From an uncultured Clostridia bacterium (GTDB taxonomy: Bacteria > Bacillota > Clostridia > Oscillospirales > Acutalibacteraceae): a DNA stretch of 64,000 bases. The stretch is taken from the NCBI GenBank assembly GCA_947585745.1, contig CANPXF010000001.1, positions 62,001-126,000 of the forward strand. The letters are read 5' to 3'. The position numbers and the translations under genes were made by a program. The notes below the pieces were generated by a model. That model was not told where the DNA came from. It did no database searches and saw nothing but the letters and a program-made list of their open reading frames with translations. Within the stretch, counting starts at the first letter, position 1. Every line of letters begins with the position of its first letter. This document shows, piece by piece, positions 7,931-22,157 of this stretch.

Positions 7931-8230
7931 CTAATCTTCTATATTCAAAACAGACGACAGATTAGTAATTTTCAGAATTTCCATAACATTTTTATTGGCG
8001 GACCTGACTGTAAATCCGCCCTTTTCAGACATAAGCTTATGCGCCATTACAAGAACCCTCAGGCCTGCCGAGGAAATATATTCAAGCTTTGATAAATTGA
8101 GAGTTATTTTTTCACATTCGTCAGCCTGAAGTTTTATTTCATTCTCAAGCTCGGGGGCGGTAAGCGTATCCAATCTTCCGTCTATAGAAATAATTACCGT
8201 CTTATCTTCCTTGATTGTATTAATATTCAT
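7931..8230 (-). CDS. STAS-domain anti-sigma factor antagonist (SpoIIAA/RsbV-like)
   Basis: The 99-aa protein is a complete STAS domain: a strand IISIDGRLDTLTAPEL, then ITLNLSKLEYISSAGLRVLV, where the SSAGLR serine is the usual phosphorylation site, and a C-terminal helix. RsbV/SpoIIAA proteins bind an RsbW-type kinase when unphosphorylated and are reset by SpoIIE/RsbU phosphatases. Both partner types occur in the divergent NRPS locus (17522-17938 and 17935-19878), and the MATE gene carries a third related domain. It has its own strong promoter at 8263-8291. Family call is very secure; pairing with these particular partners is inference from position. Confidence 0.92.
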   Translation of the reverse strand: MNINTIKEDKTVIISIDGRLDTLTAPELENEIKLQADECEKITLNLSKLEYISSAGLRVLVMAHKLMSEKGGFTVRSANKNVMEILKITNLSSVLNIED

Positions 8231-8408: not shown

Positions 8409-10130
8409 ATGACGCACACTTTATTAAAGCGAAACTCAAATATAATCAACAAAAAATATATGGAATACTTTTTGCCCACGGTGCTTACCGCAATGGCGAA
8501 CAATATCGCGATTATGGTGGACTCCGTGCTTGTGGGCCAGCTGGTGGGAAGCGCCTCAATGGCGGCGATTAACCTGCTGTCCCCTGTTACACAGCTTTAC
8601 TTTTCACTTACCATTCTTTTCGGTCTCGGAGCGTCAACAATAATTTCATACGCAAAGGGAGTAAACGACAAGAAAACGGCGGACAAAACCTTTACCGCCG
8701 TAATTGTGTCGCTTCTGCTGTTCAGCGCCCTGCTTATGGCGTTGCAGTTTATATTTTTAAACGATATAGCGTCTGTTCTGACGTCTATACCCAAATTAAA
8801 GCAACAGCTGATACTCTATTACGTTCCGTTTATAATCGGCACTCCTTTTTCAATGTTTCTTCCAAGTATTGTTCATTGTATAAGAAGTGACGGCAGACCG
8901 ACATTCGCGTCTAATTTAATAATAATTTCAAACGCGATAAATCTTACGATGGATATAGTTCTTATGGGACCGTTCAGAACGGGGATTATCGGCTCCTCAA
9001 TCGCAACGGTTATAGGAAACGCGGTTGCCTTTGTGATTATGTTGAGCCATTTTAAAAATCCGAACAACACTCTTCATTTTGATTTTTCGGCTGTCAGAAA
9101 TCCGAGAGAGCTTTTTAAAAGCTTTTGTTCTATGTTTACCACGGGTCTTTCGGGAGCGCTCGGAACGCTTCTCATCGTGGTAAGAATGTTTTTCTTAAAC
9201 AGTATGATACAAAATTCAGCCGGCGCGGAGGGTATGGTGGCAATGTCCGTTATATCATCAAGCCAAATATTTATATCCGCGTTTATAACGGGCGCGTCGC
9301 AAACTATGATACCCATTGTAAGCGTGCTTTTGGGAGAAAAAGACTTTGCGGGTATTAAATTCGCTTTCAGAAAGGCAATGTATATTCTTTTAATCGCGAG
9401 TACCGCTATTGTGCTTGTAATTGAGATGTTCCCCGAATTTGTCGCCCGCCTTTTCGGAAATATGACGCAAACGGAAATGCAGGTCATTGTCCCCGCTTTG
9501 AGAATCAGCTCCTTATCCTTCCACGGACTTGCGCTGTCCTTCCTCATAATGTATTACTATATGGCTACAACGAAAAAAGGTTTTTCCGTTACAATATCCG
9601 TATTAAACGGAATTGCGCTCATTATTCCCTGCGTATATTTTATGGATTTGCTCTGGGGAGTTAACGGAATCTGGACAGCGATGACGGTCGCTCAATACGG
9701 AACCCTGCTTGTGCTTGCCGTAATGTTGATAGTCACCATAAAAAAATCCGACGGAAGATACAAAAACTTTTATTTGCTTGACGAAAAAAGCAAGAACGAA
9801 ATTATGTCCGTTTCCGTAAACACTGATTTTTCGGAAAATACAATCGATGAATATTTATCCGAAAACCTCACTGCCGACAACGAAACAACGCTCAGCGTAA
9901 CATCGGCGATAACTCATATATTTTCTGAAATAAAGTCGTCGGGCTCAAAGAAAAACAAGGCTGTTGATATTGACATAAGAATAAGATACGAGAACAACAG
10001 CTATATAATTCTTATGCTCAGCAACGGAAACGAACTGAACAGCCCCAATCTTATTTATGAAAACAATACATATAAAAGCTTTGAATGTACAACAGCTTTG
10101 GGAATGAATTTAATCAAAGTAATTATATAA
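8409..10130 (+). CDS. MATE-family exporter fused to a degenerate RsbW-like HATPase domain
   Basis: Residues 1-445 are a typical 12-segment MATE (NorM/DinF) multidrug exporter driven by H+ or Na+. The remaining 130 residues are cytoplasmic and unlike any usual MATE tail. They align in order with the RsbW-like gene 17522-17938: SVTSAITHIFSEI takes the place of the N box (AVEEAFVNIASYA), SNGNELNSP the place of DRGIPFNP, and TALGMNLIKVI the place of GGLGIELIKRS. The catalytic Glu/Asn and Asp appear lost, so the tail may bind the STAS protein without kinase activity. A GGAG ribosome site precedes the ATG. Sixty bases separate it from the NRPS with no terminator, so it is the likely exporter of the NRPS product. 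The MATE call is sure; the tail assignment is moderately sure. Confidence 0.85.
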   Translation: MTHTLLKRNSNIINKKYMEYFLPTVLTAMANNIAIMVDSVLVGQLVGSASMAAINLLSPVTQLYFSLTILFGLGASTIISYAKGVNDKKTADKTFTAVIVSLLLFSALLMALQFIFLNDIASVLTSIPKLKQQLILYYVPFIIGTPFSMFLPSIVHCIRSDGRPTFASNLIIISNAINLTMDIVLMGPFRTGIIGSSIATVIGNAVAFVIMLSHFKNPNNTLHFDFSAVRNPRELFKSFCSMFTTGLSGALGTLLIVVRMFFLNSMIQNSAGAEGMVAMSVISSSQIFISAFITGASQTMIPIVSVLLGEKDFAGIKFAFRKAMYILLIASTAIVLVIEMFPEFVARLFGNMTQTEMQVIVPALRISSLSFHGLALSFLIMYYYMATTKKGFSVTISVLNGIALIIPCVYFMDLLWGVNGIWTAMTVAQYGTLLVLAVMLIVTIKKSDGRYKNFYLLDEKSKNEIMSVSVNTDFSENTIDEYLSENLTADNETTLSVTSAITHIFSEIKSSGSKKNKAVDIDIRIRYENNSYIILMLSNGNELNSPNLIYENNTYKSFECTTALGMNLIKVII

Positions 10131-10190: not shown

Positions 10191-13100
10191 ATGAACACAA
10201 AAAAATATCCGATGTCAAAAACGGAATACGGAATGTATTTCTGCTTTGTATCCGAGCCTCAGGGACTGGAGTATAATCTGCCGTTTACCTTGAAGTTCAA
10301 AAAGCCTTTTGACATTGAAAAGCTGAAAACGGCGTTTTTGAAGGTTATATCAAATCATCGGAATTTAAAAAGCTGTTTTGAAACGGATAAAGACGGAAAG
10401 GTATGGCGTAAAATTTCCGATAAACCGATTGAAGTTGAAATAATTAAAACCGATAATGAGGATATTACCCCTTATGTAAAGCCGTTCGACCTTTCAACCG
10501 GTCCCTGTATGAGAGCGTACATATTCGACCGTTCGGACAGCGTAGAGCTCCTTTTTGACGTTCACCATATCATATTTGACGGCACATCCTCCGAAATCTT
10601 TGTAAAAGAGCTTGACTCGGCATTTCGCGGAGAGGAGCTGATTGCGGAAAAATACTCCGCCGTTGATTTCGCTGTTGACGAGCAAAAGCGCCTTGAAACA
10701 GACGAGTTTGAAAAGGGGCGCCGATATTACGGGGCGCTCCTTGACGAGGCGGAAACCGATATGATTCCTCTGCCCGACAAGGATCCAAAAGAAAAAATCC
10801 CGAAAAGCGTAAAATACATATTAAAACAAACAACTCCTGATGAAACACGCGCGTTTTCCCATAAAAATCAAATCAGAACGAGCGCGTTGTTTTATTCGGC
10901 GTTCGGTTATGTACTGTCTAAATACGCGGGTAGCGAGAACAGCGTGTTCTCAACTGTATTTAACGGACGAAACGGGGAAACTGCGGACTCAATAGGTATG
11001 TTTGTAAAGACCTTTCCCGTTGTCTGTAAACCAGGCGGAGGCAAAATTATCGATTACATAAGAGAAATTGACGGGCAGATAGGTCAAAGCCGAAGTCACA
11101 GCCTGTTCTCTTATGCCGACATATGCGCCGAAATGGATATAAATCCGCAGGTTTATTTCGCTTATCAGGGAGATTTTGCGAATACGAATCCCGTTTCCGT
11201 GTGCGGACAGGACACATACCGCGTACTCAATTTCACAAATGAGCTTAAAGTTGAGCTTAACTTTATACTTTACCGCAAAGAGGGAAAATTTGAAATTGAA
11301 TGTGAATACAACTCAGGCGCGTACACAGAGGGATTTATCAACGGTATTCTTGAGGCTTTGGACAAAGCCGTAAACGAATTTACCGTAAATGACGAGCTTA
11401 ATGAGGTTGACATTTTAAGCCAAAGCCAGCTTGAAATACTAAATTCCTTTAACGATACCGATGTCCCCTATGACGATACAAAAACATTTATTGACTTATT
11501 CCGAGAGCAGGTAAGGCTCCGCCCCGATAAGACCGCCCTTGTTTTCAAGGAAAACAGATATACCTACAGACAGCTTGACGAAATCACAGACAAAATCGCT
11601 TTTTATCTCAGAGGTAAAAACTGCGGTACGGAGGACGCCGTCGCTGTTTTGACAGGCCGTAGCGAATATATGACTATCTGTTCAATCGGCGTTTTGAAAT
11701 CGGGCGCGGCATACGAACCCCTTGACCCCACACATCCCGCCGAACGCCTGCAGTTTATGATAAAGGACGCGAACGCAAAAGCGCTTATCGCGGACGAAAA
11801 TTTCCTGCACCTCGTGCCCGACTTCGCGGGCGATATACTTAAAATCAGCGATATAAAAGATTTGCCCGCCTGCGCGACTTCTCTGCCCAAACCCGCTCCA
11901 AAAGATTTATTCGTACTGCTCTACACTTCGGGTTCAACGGGAACGCCGAAGGGCTGTATGATTACACACGGAAACCTGACAAACTTTATACACTGGTCAC
12001 ACAGAATCAATGAAATTACAGAAAAAAGCTCCTCCGCCGCGTACGCAAGCTACGGCTTTGACGCTCATATGATGGATATTTACCCCTACTTATCATTCGG
12101 CGGAACAGAGTATATCATTCCCGAAGAAAACCGTCTTGACTTAATGTGGATAAACGATTACTGCAGGGAAAACGGTATTACAAATATATTTATGACAACA
12201 CAGGTCGGCAGGGCTTTTATGACCTCAATAGACAACATCGCGCCTAAGATTATCAGTACGGGCGGAGAAACCCTGGTACCCTTTGAACCGGTCGGCGGAG
12301 TTAAATTCTACAACCTTTACGGCCCTACCGAATGTACTATTATTTCTACCTACTTCCTCGCGGATAAATATTACGACCCGTTCCCTATAGGAAAGCCCGT
12401 CAACAACGCACATATGTATATCGTTGACAAAAATCTCAAAAGGCTTCCCGTGGGAGCGGTGGGCGAACTGTGCATTTCGGGTCCGCTTGTGTCGAGGGGC
12501 TATCTTAACCGTCCCGAACAGACGGAGAAAACCTATGTTAAAAACCCGTTTGACAGCGACAAAGCCCACAGCGTTCTTTACCATACGGGCGATATTGTTA
12601 AATTTATGAACGACGGAAACATCTCCTATGTAGGCAGACGCGACGGAATGGTGAAAATCAGAGGTTACCGCATAGAGCTTTCCGAGGTTGAGGCCGTTAT
12701 AAGAGAATACGTCGGTATAAAAGACGCGACCGTTGTGGCAAAGGATTTGCCGACGGGCGGAAAATGCATTGTTGCGTATATAGTCTCCGATGAAAAAACA
12801 GACATTGACAAGCTTAAGGACTTTATCGGGGAGAAAAAGCCGTACTTTATGATACCCGAGGCGATAATGCAGATAGACAGTATTCCGCTTAATGTAAACG
12901 GCAAGGTCGATAAACGCAAGCTTCCCGAAATCAAGGCGGGAGATGCGGAAAAATCGGAGGAAACATCCAACCGCCCGCTCAACTCTCTTGAAACAAAAAT
13001 TGTTGGTATTATAAAGGGCATAACGGGAAACGATGATGATATAAACGTTTCCGCCGACTTAATGCGCGCGGGTATGACCTCTCTGTCAATAATCAAGCTC

Positions 13101-16100
13101 GCAGTGGAGCTTAATAAAACATTCGGCTATGACGCGGAAATAAAGCGCCTTATGAGCGGATGCACCGTATTATCGCTCGAGGATGATATTGTTGAGTATC
13201 TTTTGGAAAATATAGGAAATGAAAAAAATCCGTACGATGAAAGCGATTCCGTCAAAGCCGTTAAAAAGGATTATGCTCCCCTCTCCTACACCCAGTACGG
13301 CGTTTACTCGGAATGTATGAAGCGCCCCGGGGATACATTCTACAATATCCCGTTTTTCTATAAATTTCCTCTCTCATTTGATGAGAAAAAGCTGGCGTCG
13401 GCGATTGAAAAGGTTCTCTCCTCTCACCCGTATATCTTCACACGTCTGACTATAAAAGACGACGACGTGGTACAGATTAAGCATAGCTCCGAAAATTTTT
13501 GCGTTCCTGTCAAAATTATGAACGAAAAAGAGCTTGAAAGCTACAAAAAAGGCTTTGTAAAGCCATATAAACTGATGGACTCACAGCTGTTTAAAATAGA
13601 AATAATTAAAACGGAAAAGGGAATTTATCTCCTTTCCGACTTTCACCATATTATTTTTGACGGCGGTTCAATGGGACTGTTTATAGGCGACTTAAAGAGT
13701 TGTTACGAGGGCGGAGAAATTTCCGCTGAAGCATACGACTACTTTGACTACGTTAATGAGGAAATCAAAAACAAGTCGAGCGAGGAATTTAAAAATGCGG
13801 AAAAATATGTTTCGGATATGCTCTCCGAGTGCGAAAGCGCTGACGAGCTCACCCCTGATTTGGGAGGACTTCCCGAAAACGGAAGCTCCGATATGGTATC
13901 GATACCGTTCGATATGGAGTGTATATCGAAATTCTGCGCGGAAAACGACGTTACGCCCGCGCATCTGTTCCTCGCCTCCGTTATGTATGTCGTTTCAAGG
14001 TTTACAAACAGCCGTAACGCGTATATCAACACAATCAGTAACGGCCGTTCCGATATGAGGCTGAACAACTGCTTCGGTATGTTTGTAAAAACGCTTCCAT
14101 TAGGCTTGGAAATTGAGGATATTTCCGCTATTGAGCTCGTTAAATCCGCAAAGGATTTGCTTATCAATTCAATTTCCAATGAGATTTATCCTTACGCAGA
14201 CGTATGCCGAAAATACAATTACGCTCCGAATATTATGTACGCTTACCAGCTCGGTGTTTCCGACGATGTTTACATCGACAACGAGCTGATTGAAAATGAT
14301 ATGATAGGCGAGCGAAAGGTTAAATTTAAAACGGGCGTTTATATCGAGGACAATAACGGTCAGGAATGTATCGACGTATTGTATAACAACGCTGTATACA
14401 GCAAAGAGCTTATGGAAACGTTCGCGAACGCCGTAAAGACCGTTACCGAAAAAATTATAAAAGCTCCCGAGCAAAAAGTCCGTAAAATCTCAATGCTCGA
14501 TAAAACGAATGCTGAAAAAATCGAGAGCTTTTCACAAACTGAAATTAAAGAACCCGAAATTAAACTTTTACACGAGCTTTTTGAAAAGCAAGTAGCTTTA
14601 CATCCCGACAAAACGGCGCTTGTCGCGTGCGACGGAAAATACACATATTCACAGCTTGATAAGCGCGCGAATATAATCGCCAACAACCTGATTGCAAAGG
14701 GCGTTAAAAAGGGCTGTAGAGTAGTTATTCTTCTTGAAAGAACCTCTCGGTTCTTCGCCTCTATGCTCGGTATTCTTAAGGCGGGAGCGGCGTTTATTCC
14801 GACCTGTCCCGAATATCCGAAAGAGCGTATTGAAAATATAATCGAAGACAGCGGCGCTGATTTTGTTATAACCTTCGGCGAGCTTCTTAACCGTTATGAA
14901 AAAACGGTTGATATTGCAGAGCTTGAAAAGGGAAGTAATGACGAAAGGCCCGCAGTTGACATTTCCCCCGAAGACCTCGCCTATCTTATCTACACCTCTG
15001 GCTCAACAGGAAAGCCAAAGGGCGTAATGTTAAGGCATATAGGTATCGCAAGCTTCCTCACGGACAACAAACATAATCTTCCGATAAGCTACATTACCGA
15101 AAACTGCAAATGCTACGGTTCGGTTACAACAATTTCATTTGACTTGTCGCTGAAAGAAACTATGGGCTCTCTGTGCAACGGAATTACTCTTGCTTTCGCA
15201 AGTGATGACCAGACAATGAATCCTATGTCGCTCGCGCAGTTCTTCAAGGAAAACAACGTAGACGCGTTTAACTCCACGCCGTCAAGATTATTAGTTTATA
15301 TGGAGCTCCCCGAATTTGAGCAGGCGATGAAAAACTGCAAGGTAATCCTTTCAGGCGGAGAAAAATACCCCTACAAGCTTTTACAGGTTCTCAAAGAAAA
15401 AACCGACGCAAAAATCATCAACACCTACGGCCCTACCGAAGTTACGGTTTCGTCAAACGCGAAGGACCTTACCTTCGCCGACGAAATTTCCGTCGGTAAA
15501 CCGCTGTTGAATTATAAGGAATACATAGTTGACCTTGACGATAACAAACTGCCCGCAGGCGTAACAGGCGAATTGATTATCGGAGGTTTGGGCGTTGCTT
15601 TAGGCTATAATAATCTGCCACAACAAACAGAGAAATCCTTTATAGAATATGAGGGACAGAGATTTTACCGTTCGGGCGACTACGCAAAATGGAGAGAAAA
15701 CGGCGACGTAATTATCCTTGGAAGAAAAGACAATCAGGTAAAATTAAGAGGTCTGCGTATCGAGCTCGGGGAAATTGAAAAATCCCTCACAAATATTGAG
15801 GGTGTCCGCTCTGCCGTAGTAGTCATTAAAAAGCTCGGAAATGAGGACAACCTCTGCGCCTACTATACCGCTGACAGGCAAATGGATATAGATTTTCTAA
15901 AGGATGAGCTGAAGAAAACCCTTACCGAATATATGATTCCCGCCTTCTTTAATCAGCTTGAGGAGCTTCCCCTCACTCCAAACGGAAAGGTAAATCTCAA
16001 GGCCTTGAGCGAGCCTGTTATCGCGGAAAAAAGTAAAAAGAATATCGAAAAGCCCGCTAATACCGTGGAAAAACAGTTCTGCAAAATTTTCGCCGATATT

Positions 16101-17480
16101 TTAAATATTGACGAGGTATCCGCAACCGACAGCTTCTTTGATTTAGGCGGTACGTCGCTTACCGTAACAAGAGTTGTAATTGAGGCGAGCAAAATTGATT
16201 ACGACATAGCCTACGGCGACGTGTTCTCATACCCGACTCCGAGAATGCTCGCAAGGCTTGTAATGGGCTCGAAGAAAGGCGATGACGGCTTTGATAATCT
16301 CGCAAGCTACGATTACGGCAATATCGAGAACGTTCTTGCAAAAAATACCGTTGACAGCTTCTTAAAAGGAGAAAAGCAGATAATCGGCGATGTAATTCTT
16401 ACGGGCGCAACGGGATTCCTCGGAATTCATATTCTTTATGAGCTTCTTAAAAGCTATAACGGAAACGTATACTGTATGCTCCGAGGAAGGGGCGATACCT
16501 CCGCTCGGGAAAGACTTCAAAATATGTTCTATTATTATTTCGAGGAAAACATATTGGAAGAATACGGCAAGAGAGTACGTATTGTTGACGGCGATATTGT
16601 AAGAAAAGAATCATTTGACGCTTTATCTGAATTTAAAGCCGACACATTCATAAATTGCGCGGCAAACGTTAAGCACTTTTCAAAGGGTACTGATATTGAA
16701 GACGTAAACTATCACGGCGTACAGAATATACTCGAATTTTGTAAAAACACGGGAATAAGACTTGTCCACGTTTCTACAATGAGCGTAGGCGGTATGTTTA
16801 TAGGCGAACCGGGAGAGGTTACGCACCTTAAAGAAAATCAGCTGTACTTCGGTCAGACCTTGAACTCTAAATACACAAACGCGAAATTCCTCGCGGAGCG
16901 TGAAATTTTGGAGAACGCCTCAAAGGGTATGAATGTAAAGATAATGAGAGTGGGAACACTGGCGCCGAGAGAACGCGATGGAGAATATCAGATAAACTTC
17001 ACCACCAACAGCTTTATGGGCAGACTTAAATCCACATTTCTTATAGGCTCTTATCCCTACGAGAGTATGGACTCGCCCTTTGAGCTTTCGCCTATCGACT
17101 ACACGGCAAAGGCTGTTTTACTTCTTGCGCAAACTCCGAAGGAGTGTACCGTATTCCACCCGTATAACAATCATTCACTTCTTATGAACGATTTGTATCT
17201 TGAGATGGGTATGACCGGACTTAGCGCCCGCCCCGTTGAAAATGACGAGTACGAAAAAGCTTTGGACGAGGCAAAGAAAGATTCTGAAAAAGCGAAGGTT
17301 TTGTCAAGCTTTATCGCCTATGAAAATATGGGACACGGCAAAAAGACCTACTCCGTCGGCAAAAGCAACGCCTTTACAATGCAGATACTTTACAGGCTCG
17401 GATTCAGATGGCCCGTTACCTCGCTTGATTATATGAAAAGATTTCTTGTAGCTTTAAAAGGACTGGATTTTTTCGAGTAA
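10191..17480 (+). CDS. Nonribosomal peptide synthetase, C-A-T-C-A-T-reductase, probable N-acyl dipeptide aldehyde synthetase
   Basis: The 2429-aa enzyme has domains in this order: C1 (1-405, HHIIFDG near 126), A1 (415-910, LLYTSGSTGTPKG near 577, NGKVDKRKL), T1 (925-1010, AGMTSL), C2 (1029-1440, HHIIFDG near 1152), A2 (1460-1940, LIYTSGSTGKPKG, NGKVNLKAL), T2 (DLGGTSL near 1983) and a short-chain-dehydrogenase-type thioester reductase (2065-2429, TGATGFLG; YTNAK as YxxxK). The reductase implies NAD(P)H-dependent release as an aldehyde or alcohol. An N-terminal C domain is typical of starter modules that attach a fatty acyl group. Hand-aligned pocket residues are roughly D-A-M-F-I-T-L-I-I-K for A1 and D-L-K-N-I-S-T-V-S-K for A2, too divergent for me to name substrates. 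An AAAGGAG site precedes the ATG. The T domains need an Sfp-type phosphopantetheinyl transferase, not present in this window. Architecture is certain; product class is a family-based inference. Confidence 0.95.
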   Translation: MNTKKYPMSKTEYGMYFCFVSEPQGLEYNLPFTLKFKKPFDIEKLKTAFLKVISNHRNLKSCFETDKDGKVWRKISDKPIEVEIIKTDNEDITPYVKPFDLSTGPCMRAYIFDRSDSVELLFDVHHIIFDGTSSEIFVKELDSAFRGEELIAEKYSAVDFAVDEQKRLETDEFEKGRRYYGALLDEAETDMIPLPDKDPKEKIPKSVKYILKQTTPDETRAFSHKNQIRTSALFYSAFGYVLSKYAGSENSVFSTVFNGRNGETADSIGMFVKTFPVVCKPGGGKIIDYIREIDGQIGQSRSHSLFSYADICAEMDINPQVYFAYQGDFANTNPVSVCGQDTYRVLNFTNELKVELNFILYRKEGKFEIECEYNSGAYTEGFINGILEALDKAVNEFTVNDELNEVDILSQSQLEILNSFNDTDVPYDDTKTFIDLFREQVRLRPDKTALVFKENRYTYRQLDEITDKIAFYLRGKNCGTEDAVAVLTGRSEYMTICSIGVLKSGAAYEPLDPTHPAERLQFMIKDANAKALIADENFLHLVPDFAGDILKISDIKDLPACATSLPKPAPKDLFVLLYTSGSTGTPKGCMITHGNLTNFIHWSHRINEITEKSSSAAYASYGFDAHMMDIYPYLSFGGTEYIIPEENRLDLMWINDYCRENGITNIFMTTQVGRAFMTSIDNIAPKIISTGGETLVPFEPVGGVKFYNLYGPTECTIISTYFLADKYYDPFPIGKPVNNAHMYIVDKNLKRLPVGAVGELCISGPLVSRGYLNRPEQTEKTYVKNPFDSDKAHSVLYHTGDIVKFMNDGNISYVGRRDGMVKIRGYRIELSEVEAVIREYVGIKDATVVAKDLPTGGKCIVAYIVSDEKTDIDKLKDFIGEKKPYFMIPEAIMQIDSIPLNVNGKVDKRKLPEIKAGDAEKSEETSNRPLNSLETKIVGIIKGITGNDDDINVSADLMRAGMTSLSIIKLAVELNKTFGYDAEIKRLMSGCTVLSLEDDIVEYLLENIGNEKNPYDESDSVKAVKKDYAPLSYTQYGVYSECMKRPGDTFYNIPFFYKFPLSFDEKKLASAIEKVLSSHPYIFTRLTIKDDDVVQIKHSSENFCVPVKIMNEKELESYKKGFVKPYKLMDSQLFKIEIIKTEKGIYLLSDFHHIIFDGGSMGLFIGDLKSCYEGGEISAEAYDYFDYVNEEIKNKSSEEFKNAEKYVSDMLSECESADELTPDLGGLPENGSSDMVSIPFDMECISKFCAENDVTPAHLFLASVMYVVSRFTNSRNAYINTISNGRSDMRLNNCFGMFVKTLPLGLEIEDISAIELVKSAKDLLINSISNEIYPYADVCRKYNYAPNIMYAYQLGVSDDVYIDNELIENDMIGERKVKFKTGVYIEDNNGQECIDVLYNNAVYSKELMETFANAVKTVTEKIIKAPEQKVRKISMLDKTNAEKIESFSQTEIKEPEIKLLHELFEKQVALHPDKTALVACDGKYTYSQLDKRANIIANNLIAKGVKKGCRVVILLERTSRFFASMLGILKAGAAFIPTCPEYPKERIENIIEDSGADFVITFGELLNRYEKTVDIAELEKGSNDERPAVDISPEDLAYLIYTSGSTGKPKGVMLRHIGIASFLTDNKHNLPISYITENCKCYGSVTTISFDLSLKETMGSLCNGITLAFASDDQTMNPMSLAQFFKENNVDAFNSTPSRLLVYMELPEFEQAMKNCKVILSGGEKYPYKLLQVLKEKTDAKIINTYGPTEVTVSSNAKDLTFADEISVGKPLLNYKEYIVDLDDNKLPAGVTGELIIGGLGVALGYNNLPQQTEKSFIEYEGQRFYRSGDYAKWRENGDVIILGRKDNQVKLRGLRIELGEIEKSLTNIEGVRSAVVVIKKLGNEDNLCAYYTADRQMDIDFLKDELKKTLTEYMIPAFFNQLEELPLTPNGKVNLKALSEPVIAEKSKKNIEKPANTVEKQFCKIFADILNIDEVSATDSFFDLGGTSLTVTRVVIEASKIDYDIAYGDVFSYPTPRMLARLVMGSKKGDDGFDNLASYDYGNIENVLAKNTVDSFLKGEKQIIGDVILTGATGFLGIHILYELLKSYNGNVYCMLRGRGDTSARERLQNMFYYYFEENILEEYGKRVRIVDGDIVRKESFDALSEFKADTFINCAANVKHFSKGTDIEDVNYHGVQNILEFCKNTGIRLVHVSTMSVGGMFIGEPGEVTHLKENQLYFGQTLNSKYTNAKFLAEREILENASKGMNVKIMRVGTLAPRERDGEYQINFTTNSFMGRLKSTFLIGSYPYESMDSPFELSPIDYTAKAVLLLAQTPKECTVFHPYNNHSLLMNDLYLEMGMTGLSARPVENDEYEKALDEAKKDSEKAKVLSSFIAYENMGHGKKTYSVGKSNAFTMQILYRLGFRWPVTSLDYMKRFLVALKGLDFFE

Positions 17481-17521: not shown

Positions 17522-17938
17522 ATGAAAATACGGCTTAAAGCGACCACGGAAAATTTAACAAAACTTATATCTTCCTGCGAGAATTATCTCATATCGGAGT
17601 TTTCATCTGGCGACGGCTTTAATCTTTTGATTACAGCCGTCGAGGAAGCCTTTGTAAACATAGCAAGCTACGCCTACAAAAATGAAACGGGCTATGTGGA
17701 TTTTGAAATTTCTCGTATAGATAACAATCGGGTAAAAGTAATTTTTACAGACAGAGGAATACCCTTTAACCCGATTATGTTTAACAGCGGGGAAAATGTA
17801 GAAAACAACCTTGACATACTTATTCCCGGAGGACTCGGAATCGAATTGATTAAACGTTCAATGAAAAATCTGCGGTACAAATACATAAACGAAAAAAACA
17901 TTTTTTCATTTGAGGCAATACGGGAGAAAAGCAAATGA
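17522..17938 (+). CDS. RsbW/SpoIIAB-like serine kinase (anti-sigma type HATPase)
   Basis: This 138-aa single-domain GHKL ATPase shows the N box AVEEAFVNIASYAY, G1 box DRGIPFNP and G2 box GGLGIELIKRSM. Proteins of this class phosphorylate a STAS antagonist and sequester a sigma factor or another target. It lies 41 bases after the NRPS and its stop overlaps the start of the phosphatase gene (ATGA), the usual kinase/phosphatase pairing. Unlike the MATE tail, its catalytic boxes look intact. No sigma factor gene lies beside it. The natural substrate would be the STAS protein at 7931-8230, which is inference. Confidence 0.9.
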   Translation: MKIRLKATTENLTKLISSCENYLISEFSSGDGFNLLITAVEEAFVNIASYAYKNETGYVDFEISRIDNNRVKVIFTDRGIPFNPIMFNSGENVENNLDILIPGGLGIELIKRSMKNLRYKYINEKNIFSFEAIREKSK

Positions 17939-19878
17939 AAACAAAAGCTGTTATTATAAAAAGACAAATTATCGGTTTTATCCTGTGTACTCTTATACTC
18001 GCCGGCTTAAATATAATGACCAGAACTATTCCCTTACTTAATGATTACGGAGAATTTAGAGTATCAGGCTTTTTCTCGGTATTTGCCGGAATGTTCTTCG
18101 GCCCCTCGGGCGCTTTAGGATGCGCGGTCGGAAATTTTTTATCGGACTTGTACAGCGATTTAAACTTTGCAAATGTATGCGGATTTTTAGCTAACTTTCT
18201 TTTTGCCTGGCTTCCCTATCGTCTGTGGCATACTCTGTTTCCCGTTGAAAAACACAAATTACAATATATAACCTCGAACACTACTCTGCTAAAATATATC
18301 TTTATAATCGTTTTTTCAACCGTAGCTTCAATGTCTCTGCTTTCATCTTCATTTGATATTTTAGGCATATGCAAATTTAATGTTTCTTTTACACCTGTTG
18401 TTCTTTATGATATTTACTTTGCCCTTTTCTGGGGAACAACAACTTTTCTTATTGTTTACAGACTGTTCCCGCAATATATTCACATTCCCTATAAGGTGTA
18501 TAATTACAGTTATAATCATAAAAGATACCTGCCCGACTACATAATTTGTCTTGTTATAATTATTGCCGTTATATTTAGAATTTTGCTTTCAGGACCCGAT
18601 GGAAACAGGTCGCTTTCAGAAGATGTTTTGGACGCTGTTATTATTTCATTTACAATCGTTCTTGCGTTTCTTCCAATTAGAAGAAGCGGAAAAAAAGAAC
18701 CGAACGGGCAAACCGGGTTTAAAAAAAGCAAAGGACTGCAATCCCAAATAATAACGGTATTTTTTCTGTTTATTGCATTCAGCACAAGTGTTTTCGCGTC
18801 GATGCTTTCATTTGACACCTTTAATTATATAAACAGATACGTAGGCATAAAATTTTATCTTGAAACCTTGCTTGTCAATATTTTTAAACAGGTAAATCTC
18901 TGCGGATTTTTGTTTATCCTTTTACTTATGATTCTACTTAATTGGATAGAAAAAAGAATAACACGGTATGTAACAAAAATAGCCGATACCGCGGATAACT
19001 TTGTTGAAAACGGACTTAAAACAGATTTTCCCAAATTAAATAAGGACAAGATAAGCGATGAAATTCTGATGCTGGCAAGCTCCTATAAAAAAATGTCGTC
19101 GGACATTGCGGGCTATATTAAAGAAGTCGAGGAGCATACAAAACGCGAGGAAAACATAAGACTTACCATAGATATGGCGGCAAAAATACAGGCAGGTATT
19201 CTGCCCAAGCCTCTTAACGACAAAAAGTTTTCACTTTCCGCTTATATAAAACCCGCAAAAATTGTCGGCGGTGATTTTTACGACTACATAAAGCTCGACG
19301 ACGACAGACTGCTTTTATGTATAGCGGACGTGTCGTCAAAGGGAATCCCTGCGGCTATGTTTATGGCATTGGCAGGTATACTGGTAAAATGCAACAGAAA
19401 TCTTTCTCCCGAAAAAATCCTTTACAATGTAAACAATTATCTTTGCGAAACAAACAGCGAGAATATGTTTGTAACAATGTTCGTAGGAATTATCGACCGC
19501 AAAAAAAGAGTTTTTGAATTTGCAAACGCGGGCCATAACTACCCCATTATCAAAAACGGGGGCGAAATTAAATGGCTTAAAGCACAGCCCGACCTTATGG
19601 CGGGGGTATTTCCCGAAATCACCTATCATCTTAACAGTATCGACATTAAAAGTGATTTTGAGGTTTTCGTTTATACCGACGGTATAAACGAGGCGGAGGA
19701 TTTAAACAGTAACTTTTTCGGAAATGAACGGCTTGAAAAGCTTTTTAAAACGGTCAGTATGTTAAACGCGGGCACAGACGAACAGCTCAAGCTTATAATA
19801 AAAGAAATTGAGGGCTTTACAAAAGGCGCGAAGCAATCAGACGATATTACCGCGATGATTATAAAAATCAATGAATAA
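17935..19878 (+). CDS. Membrane-bound SpoIIE/RsbU-type PP2C serine phosphatase
   Basis: The N-terminal 240 residues are hydrophobic, with segments such as GFFSVFAGMFFGPSGALGCAVGNFLSDL that resemble the S-component fold of ECF transporters or a small-ligand sensor. A second membrane pair (about 265-330) leads to a HAMP-like linker (340-385). The PP2C domain (395-647) keeps the metal motifs: GGDFYDY, ADVSSKGIPAAM, YTDGINEAED and QSDDITAMII. Enzymes of this type dephosphorylate a STAS protein and thereby switch the partner kinase. The start overlaps the kinase stop by four bases. The ligand sensed by the membrane part is unknown; a precursor or the exported peptide is possible. Family call is very secure. 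Confidence 0.93.
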   Translation: MKTKAVIIKRQIIGFILCTLILAGLNIMTRTIPLLNDYGEFRVSGFFSVFAGMFFGPSGALGCAVGNFLSDLYSDLNFANVCGFLANFLFAWLPYRLWHTLFPVEKHKLQYITSNTTLLKYIFIIVFSTVASMSLLSSSFDILGICKFNVSFTPVVLYDIYFALFWGTTTFLIVYRLFPQYIHIPYKVYNYSYNHKRYLPDYIICLVIIIAVIFRILLSGPDGNRSLSEDVLDAVIISFTIVLAFLPIRRSGKKEPNGQTGFKKSKGLQSQIITVFFLFIAFSTSVFASMLSFDTFNYINRYVGIKFYLETLLVNIFKQVNLCGFLFILLLMILLNWIEKRITRYVTKIADTADNFVENGLKTDFPKLNKDKISDEILMLASSYKKMSSDIAGYIKEVEEHTKREENIRLTIDMAAKIQAGILPKPLNDKKFSLSAYIKPAKIVGGDFYDYIKLDDDRLLLCIADVSSKGIPAAMFMALAGILVKCNRNLSPEKILYNVNNYLCETNSENMFVTMFVGIIDRKKRVFEFANAGHNYPIIKNGGEIKWLKAQPDLMAGVFPEITYHLNSIDIKSDFEVFVYTDGINEAEDLNSNFFGNERLEKLFKTVSMLNAGTDEQLKLIIKEIEGFTKGAKQSDDITAMIIKINE

Positions 19879-20489: not shown

Positions 20490-20792
20490 CCGGAAAATCT
20501 TTTCAAATTGTATTGTTATAAAAATTTAATATTATGTAAAAATAATTCTTATAACATAATTAGTGAAAAACACCGGGTTAATTATAAACTTGTGTTTTTT
20601 CATTTTTTAAATTCTCCGTGTACCCTGATAACGCGTTTTTACTTTTTTATTCGTAAAATTGACAATACTCAAATAAGGTTGTCAAATTGTTAATATAATT
20701 GATATTAAATAATATAATTAATAATAAAAATTAACGCCTGCCTTTTCGGCAGGCTTTATATGCGTTTTAATAAATATTCGGAGGAAATACGA
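20490..20792. other. Intergenic stretch with one hairpin
   Basis: AT-rich and without a convincing gene. The tracked 61-aa ORF at 20508 has no ribosome site or recognisable features. A strong stem GCCTGCC/GGCAGGC at 20736-20754 with a short T run (TTTAT) lies 38 bases before the MATE start. It may end the lipoprotein transcript, although its position next to the ribosome site would also allow attenuation. Confidence 0.5.
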
Positions 20793-22157
20793 GTGGGAAG
20801 AAAAATAGATATGACAAAGGGCAAGCTCGGCGGAAAAATTATCCGATACACAATTCCGCTTGCTGTAACAGGTATTTTACAACAGCTTTTTAACGCGGCG
20901 GACATAGCTGTCGTGGGGCAGTTTTCGGGAAAAGAGGCGATGGCGGCTGTAGGCAGTAACGCTCCCGTCATAGGAATATTAATAAACCTGTTTGTCGGAA
21001 TTTCGCTTGGCAGTAATGTAATTATCGCGAAATCCATAGGACAGGGCGACAAAAAGCAGGTTTCAAAGGCGGTACATACTTCCATTATCGTCGCGCTTAT
21101 AGGCGGTATTATCATTACAATACTGGGCGAGATATTCGCGCCGGAGGTTGTCAAGCTGTTACAAGTCCCCGACGAAGTGTTCCCGCTTTCCGTAAAATAT
21201 CTTAAAATATATCTTTTGGGAATGCCCGTAATTTTACTCTATAACTTTGAATCCGCTATTTTCAGAAGTTGCGGAAACACAAAAACACCGCTTATTGCGC
21301 TTGTTGTTTCGGGGGTTCTCAATGTAATTTTCAACCTCGGATTTGTTGCGGGCTTTGGTATGGACGTTGACGGAGTTGCCATTGCGACGGTTTTGGCAAA
21401 TACAATCAGCTCCGTAATCCTTTTCATCGCTTTGATGAAAACGGATTTGTCGGTTAAGGTTTCGTTACGGAAGCTGAGGATACATAAAAACGTTCTTGTC
21501 CAAATTTTAAAAATCGGGGTTCCCGCGGGCGTTCAGGGTATGATATTCTCATTCGCTAATATTATCATTCAGTCAGCCGTCAACAGCCTCGGCACAACGG
21601 TTATCGCGGCGTCGTCGGCGGCATTTAATCTCGAAATTTTCGCATACTATATTATGAATTCATTCGGTCAGGCTTGTACGACGTTTATAGGACAAAATTA
21701 CGGCGCGGGTAAAAACGAAAGATGTAAAAAAACCTTAAAGCTCTGCCTTTTGCAATGCGCCGTCGGCACCGTCACAATTTGTGTGCTTATATTGATTTTC
21801 TCAAAACAACTGCTCTCTGTATTCAATACGGACCCCGATGTAATATCCGTCGGCTGTGCCAGACTTTCGTACATTTTCTTCGCCTACATTTTCAGCATAT
21901 GGCAGGAGGTTCTCTCGGGATATCTGCGCGGATTCGGCGTGTCTTTTATTCCCGCGCTTTGCTCGGTTCTGGGAATATGCGGAATCCGATTGGTATGGAT
22001 TTTTACCGTATTCGGTATGTCGCCGACCTTTGATACAATTATGCAGGTTTACCCTTTAAGCCTCGGCATCACCGCATTATTGATTTTAATTGCCACAATA
22101 ATAATTAAACCGTCAAAAAGATACTTTGCAAGTAAAACGCCTGAAATTACAATCTAA
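20793..22157 (+). CDS. MATE-family efflux protein
   Basis: I choose the GTG at 20793 (MGRKIDMTKGKLGGKI) because TTCGGAGGAAATAC lies 8 bases upstream; the tracked ATG at 20760 would place this site inside the gene. The 454-aa protein has the 12 hydrophobic segments and the PLAVTGILQQLFNAADIAVVGQF start common to MATE exporters of Clostridia. It lacks the C-terminal ATPase-like tail of the first MATE in this window. MATE proteins export cationic drugs and metabolites with Na+ or H+. It is followed by a flavodoxin-fold oxidoreductase 64 bases downstream, possibly co-transcribed. Substrate unknown. Confidence 0.9.
   Translation: MGRKIDMTKGKLGGKIIRYTIPLAVTGILQQLFNAADIAVVGQFSGKEAMAAVGSNAPVIGILINLFVGISLGSNVIIAKSIGQGDKKQVSKAVHTSIIVALIGGIIITILGEIFAPEVVKLLQVPDEVFPLSVKYLKIYLLGMPVILLYNFESAIFRSCGNTKTPLIALVVSGVLNVIFNLGFVAGFGMDVDGVAIATVLANTISSVILFIALMKTDLSVKVSLRKLRIHKNVLVQILKIGVPAGVQGMIFSFANIIIQSAVNSLGTTVIAASSAAFNLEIFAYYIMNSFGQACTTFIGQNYGAGKNERCKKTLKLCLLQCAVGTVTICVLILIFSKQLLSVFNTDPDVISVGCARLSYIFFAYIFSIWQEVLSGYLRGFGVSFIPALCSVLGICGIRLVWIFTVFGMSPTFDTIMQVYPLSLGITALLILIATIIIKPSKRYFASKTPEITI

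Follow-up and report, generated by a model that had tools for sequence, protein, structure and literature searches.

Sigma factors are the main known targets of Rsb-type switches, and a few enzyme targets are known beside them. The anti-sigma kinases RsbW and SpoIIAB (HATPase_c_2, PF13581) have their fold order in common with the C-terminal tail of the MATE exporter described here, and descent of the tail from this family is detectable; unlike in these kinases, the tail is fused to a transporter, the catalytic Glu, the Asn and the G1-box Asp are replaced, and the G2 box and the ATP lid are deleted. Non-sigma outputs of such switches have been described in Pseudomonas, where SiaC activates SiaD (PMC8457831), and for SiaABC (PMC7647112). 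Like the locus reported here, SiaABCD of Pseudomonas aeruginosa combines a PP2C phosphatase, a kinase and a STAS-like protein, and has a non-sigma target (PMC7647112, PMC8457831). That target is a diguanylate cyclase bound through its stalk, whereas the candidate target here is an exporter carrying a kinase-like domain. SLC26/SulP transporters likewise bear a partner-switch-type domain at their cytoplasmic end (PMC8256260), but the fused domain is STAS, whereas the protein in this study fuses the kinase side, to a MATE exporter. We found no paper on such a switch beside dipeptide-aldehyde NRPS clusters and, in a search that covered few subscription journals, no account of what a MATE-HATPase_c_2 fusion does.

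Organization of the locus

The window, i.e., the whole 64,000-nucleotide stretch that was analysed, originates from a gut Clostridia bacterium. Between positions 7931 and 19878 it encodes a STAS protein on the reverse strand followed, on the forward strand, by a MATE exporter, an NRPS, an RsbW-like kinase and a PP2C phosphatase (Table 1). A STAS protein with its phosphoserine, an intact kinase and a SpoIIE-type PP2C phosphatase are thus all present in one locus and, unlike in RsbW/SpoIIAB systems, no sigma factor gene was found among the genes of the cluster. The membrane half at the N-terminus of the phosphatase weakly resembled QueT (PF06177, 7.4e-6, below cut-off) and may be a ligand sensor; in the corresponding phosphatase of the related locus L175, a 5TM-5TMR_LYT domain and a weak HAMP match take the place of this half.

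The NRPS has the C-A-T-C-A-T-reductase order of dipeptide-aldehyde synthetases and is the only such enzyme encoded in the genome. Its two modules and terminal reductase are shared with the clusters of AusA (Staphylococcus) and ruminopeptin (Ruminococcus bromii; PMC12327764), with AusA as the best named model. Judging from the domain order and from gut precedents (PMC12327764), the enzyme probably makes a dipeptide aldehyde or pyrazinone.

The exporter contains two MatE repeats (PF01554 in two stretches), and its membrane part ends at approximately residue 440, leaving about 130 residues beyond; a 573-residue protein and an extension of this length were confirmed at the coordinates given in the preliminary description. 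Five MATE genes of the same genome matched the window protein, and the tail region was matched by the window gene only. The cluster is closely followed by another MATE gene, which has no tail.

Table 1. Features of the window and of related loci (window coordinates unless a locus is named).
Feature	Coordinates	Strand	Evidence
STAS anti-anti-sigma-type protein; phosphosite YISSAGLR intact	7931..8230	-	family-model match
MATE exporter with C-terminal pseudo-HATPase domain, 573 aa	8409..10130	+	PF01554 1.3e-25
MATE membrane domain, residues 1-443	8409..9737	+	
Conserved, positively charged linker after the last membrane helix, KKSDGRYKNFYLL...	9738..9791	+	alignment; low model confidence
Lid-less pseudo-HATPase_c_2 domain, residues 464-573	9798..10127	+	profiles, AlphaFold model, alignment
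Former N box TSAITHIFSEIKSS; catalytic Glu replaced by His503, Asn by Glu507	9900..9941	+	alignment
Former G1 box MLSNGNELN; Asp replaced by Ser538	10014..10040	+	alignment
Deletion point of G2 box, ATP lid and following helix	10065..10076	+	alignments and models
C-terminal beta hairpin SFECTTALGMNLIKVII, best conserved part (VLGMNxIKxII)	10077..10127	+	alignment
NRPS, C-A-T-C-A-T-reductase	10191..17480	+	AusA is closest named model
RsbW-like kinase; N, G1 and G2 boxes intact	17522..17938	+	HATPase_c_2 1.4e-11; alignment; model
Membrane SpoIIE-type PP2C phosphatase	17935..19878	+	PF07228 1.8e-36
Second MATE gene, tail-less	20760..22157		
STAS...HATPase_c_2 protein	L053:9809-11404		
STAS...HATPase_c_2 protein	L055:8230-9816		
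STAS...HATPase_c_2 protein	L056:8090-9637		
STAS...HATPase_c_2 protein	L063:4366-5985		
STAS...HATPase_c_2 protein	L064:10452-12041		
260-aa protein between MATE and PP2C genes	L062:2930-3712		no Pfam match
260-aa protein between MATE and PP2C genes	L069:10132-10914		no Pfam match

Ancestry and predicted fold of the tail

The tail had been described as resembling the RsbW-like protein of the same cluster. Pairwise BLAST between the two gave a non-significant E of 0.35, the HATPase_c_2 and RsbW models of Pfam and NCBIfam did not match the window tail directly, a search of its own genome with PF13581 at E ≤ 10 did not retrieve it, and a search of PDB sequences with the tail returned nothing useful. 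Since the window tail alone is invisible to family models, its ancestry was resolved through relatives that bridge to HATPase_c_2. A profile built from 22 non-MATE RsbW-type domains only, with the MATE tails left out, scored the window tail at 11.9 bits and its close relative L013 at 15.0 bits, compared to a maximum of 6.3 bits among 880 shuffled tails. Profile-profile alignment (hhalign) of the six-member window clade with MATE tails whose N-box and G1 residues are intact gave an E of 1.2e-9 over 112 columns, and the controls STAS and PP2C aligned over only 10 and 24 columns, respectively. Some homologous tails from other genomes matched Pfam HATPase_c_2 above its cut-off (L010/P0006, 6.2e-8; L147, 1.5e-9; L108, 6.6e-19). 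A hit to L011, a penicillin-binding-protein-like sequence, was false and was discarded.

The AlphaFold2 model of the tail, computed from four orthologues without templates and of modest confidence (pLDDT 65), predicted the order strand-helix-helix-strand-strand-(short helix)-strand-strand, i.e., a Bergerat-type fold from which the third helix is missing. The RsbW-like kinase, modelled at equal alignment depth, had the same order and additionally the helix H105-113 that is absent from the tail. The 12 best PDB matches of the tail model in Foldseek were all SpoIIAB, RsbW or UsfX (best E 9e-4, probability 1.00), so that structure prediction of the tail alone recovered the fold anticipated for it. 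The claimed resemblance thus stood in profiles and fold, above chance, and failed at the level of pairwise BLAST. On this combination of sequence profiles and predicted fold, together with intermediate forms in relatives, the last ~110 residues of the exporter are descended from an RsbW/SpoIIAB-type ATPase domain (HATPase_c_2). That the tail is unrelated to RsbW and resembles it by chance would agree with the BLAST and Pfam results, but was rejected as hardly credible given the Foldseek fold match, the profile-profile alignment and the intermediate forms among relatives.

Loss and retention of motifs

The alignment bore out the replacements read in the preliminary description: His503 stands in place of the catalytic Glu, Glu507 in place of the Asn and Ser538 in place of the G1 Asp; the 'NG' of the G1 box is retained. 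The G2 box reported there (LGMNLIK) turned out to be the last strand. LGMNLIKVII lined up with the strand that ends the domain, which reads LGLNNLT in relatives, and the segment comprising the G2 box, the lid and the helix after it has been deleted. With the N-box Glu and Asn, the G1 Asp, the G2 box and the ATP lid of HATPase_c_2 domains all missing, the window tail is best read as non-catalytic and would no longer phosphorylate.

The comparison covered 80 MATE tails, selected for their resemblance to tails that are mainly NRPS-linked; Glu, Asn and Asp were kept in 57 and degenerate in 23. Motif loss was confined to these MATE tails, whereas all separate or phosphatase-fused HATPase domains (43/43) kept the three residues, with a GGLG-type G2 box. 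The phosphosite serine of STAS was conserved in 53 of 53 proteins. In MATE tails with intact N-box and G1 residues the G2 box was reduced too, usually with one Gly left, and kinase activity of those tails is therefore only putative. MATE tails outside the NRPS clade (L052-L072 and others) mostly had Cys for the G1 Gly (RDNC; ENDC in 22 of the 80 rows) and HIGI where others have GGLG.

Evolutionary history and selection

In a quick tree of the MATE part, from which L012 and L013 were left out (same contigs as L134 and L135), the window protein fell among 10 rows that are lid-less and NRPS-linked and form a well supported group. The sister set of 11 comprised three intact rows (L146-L148) and eight without the catalytic Glu, and two more decays occurred elsewhere (L062/L069/L106, without NRPS, and L165/L168). 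Intermediates from intact to lid-less were thus found within one MATE tree. Counting the fewest changes, the N-box/G1 residues were lost about four times, an approximate number because the tree came from a short search, several branches were long and the rows had been picked by similarity to mainly NRPS-linked tails.

Between orthologues, dN/dS was 0.13-0.35 for the tail, 0.16-0.20 for the RsbW-like kinase and 0.05-0.07 for the membrane part, and at the protein level the tail evolved approximately 3-4 times faster than the membrane domain. Its conserved portions were the first strand and the terminal hairpin, in which VLGMNxIKxII was nearly invariant over the 10 lid-less rows. Tail dN/dS well below 1 together with this motif speaks for a non-catalytic role that the tail has kept, and purifying selection on the tail makes a regulatory role reasonable. 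Evolution faster than that of the membrane part, the deleted lid and the repeated independent decay would also suit a vestige kept solely for folding or stability of the exporter and carrying no signal; we consider this a real, if unlikely, alternative, as the dN/dS of the tail is nearly as low as that of the kinase of the cluster and the hairpin motif has hardly changed.

Distribution and gene neighbourhood

Among 161 genomes in the genus, 97 carried the MATE-HATPase fusion. Of these, 92 also had an NRPS condensation domain and 5 did not, whereas 14 genomes had the domain only and 50 neither (p 6e-23, uncorrected for kinship and obtained with a tail profile that favours NRPS-type tails). Within the fetched stretches, an NRPS was detected for 48 of the 52 NRPS-clade rows vs. 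1 of the remaining 28. Most fetched fusions adjoined an AusA-like NRPS, and STAS, kinase and PP2C genes were often close by as well. Wide occurrence of the tail away from STAS or NRPS genes was named in the preliminary description as counter-evidence. This was half borne out: many MATE proteins whose tails keep the N-box and G1 residues lacked an NRPS, and often had no switch gene nearby either, whereas the lid-less form was found beside NRPS genes only (10/10 rows).

STAS and PP2C or kinase genes were frequent, though not universal, neighbours of the fusions, and in relatives the STAS gene often directly adjoined the MATE gene. No switch gene lay nearby in 22 of the 57 intact fusions, some of them on short contigs, so the architecture does not depend on a local switch. 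The proposal that decay of the tail needs a separate kinase in cis was not supported: kinases also lie beside intact tails, many contigs end early, and no kinase was found near the degenerate tail of locus L142/L174, which has a STAS gene.

Two further protein types were observed near related exporters. Proteins of ~530 aa with a STAS front and a HATPase_c_2 end were encoded near intact MATE-HATPase genes without NRPS at five loci, in two of which (L053 and L055) Pfam placed an aminoglycoside-phosphotransferase-like (APH) domain between the two parts. The 260-aa proteins come from L062 and L069, where the MATE tail has decayed and an NRPS is absent.

Proposed mechanism

The complete switch, with its intact phosphosite and kinase, the lack of a sigma factor in the cluster and the kinase-like domain of the exporter together suggest that export is the output. 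Overall, we prefer the reading that a dead, lid-less RsbW/SpoIIAB-type tail, from a widespread MATE-HATPase_c_2 family, docks the local phospho-switch to export, and assign it a probability of about 0.5. The tail would have originated in widespread MATE exporters fused to HATPase_c_2 domains with intact N-box and G1 residues, and would now serve as a cytoplasmic docking domain for the PP2C phosphatase/RsbW-like kinase/STAS switch. Through it, the switch would probably act on export of the NRPS product directly, rather than via a transcription factor. We infer that the tail binds a switch component, most likely dephosphorylated STAS and otherwise the free kinase, and that this binding would gate transport. 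At its core, the preliminary description is supported by both sequence and model: a degenerate Bergerat-type domain is fused to an exporter whose cluster also contains the complete switch and an NRPS.

HATPase_c_2 anti-sigma kinases dimerise, and the tail might instead pair with the free RsbW-like kinase, holding it at the exporter or tuning its activity as other pseudokinases do. The preservation of kinase domains (43/43) while tails decayed and the conserved first strand and terminal hairpin are consistent with such a pair, but the relatives L047, L049 and L094 have a kinase-phosphatase fusion in the membrane instead, and we regard the pairing as a real, if improbable, alternative. The preferred docking reading was first put forward in a more specific form, in which dephosphorylated STAS binds the tail in the manner of RsbW and opens or closes the exporter. 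The complete STAS/kinase/PP2C set with its intact phosphoserine and the frequent adjacency of STAS and MATE genes favour this form. However, the N-box Glu and the ATP lid belong to the known contact surface between STAS proteins and their kinases (PMC10120452), and the tail has neither, which weakens a canonical binding mechanism, and L051 has an NRPS and a MATE-HATPase fusion with no STAS within reach; gating of this specific kind is possible, if doubtful.

More broadly, we tentatively suggest that in gut Clostridia a PP2C/kinase/STAS 'export partner switch' may act directly on a secondary transporter through the fused kinase-like domain, which would have turned into a pure receptor in several lineages, with catalysis left to the separate kinase. 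If true, an exporter with a kinase-side domain would provide direct, transcription-independent control over the release of gut peptide aldehydes, and the graded series within one genus, from tails with intact N-box and G1 residues to lid-less ones, lets the importance of each part of the domain be tested.
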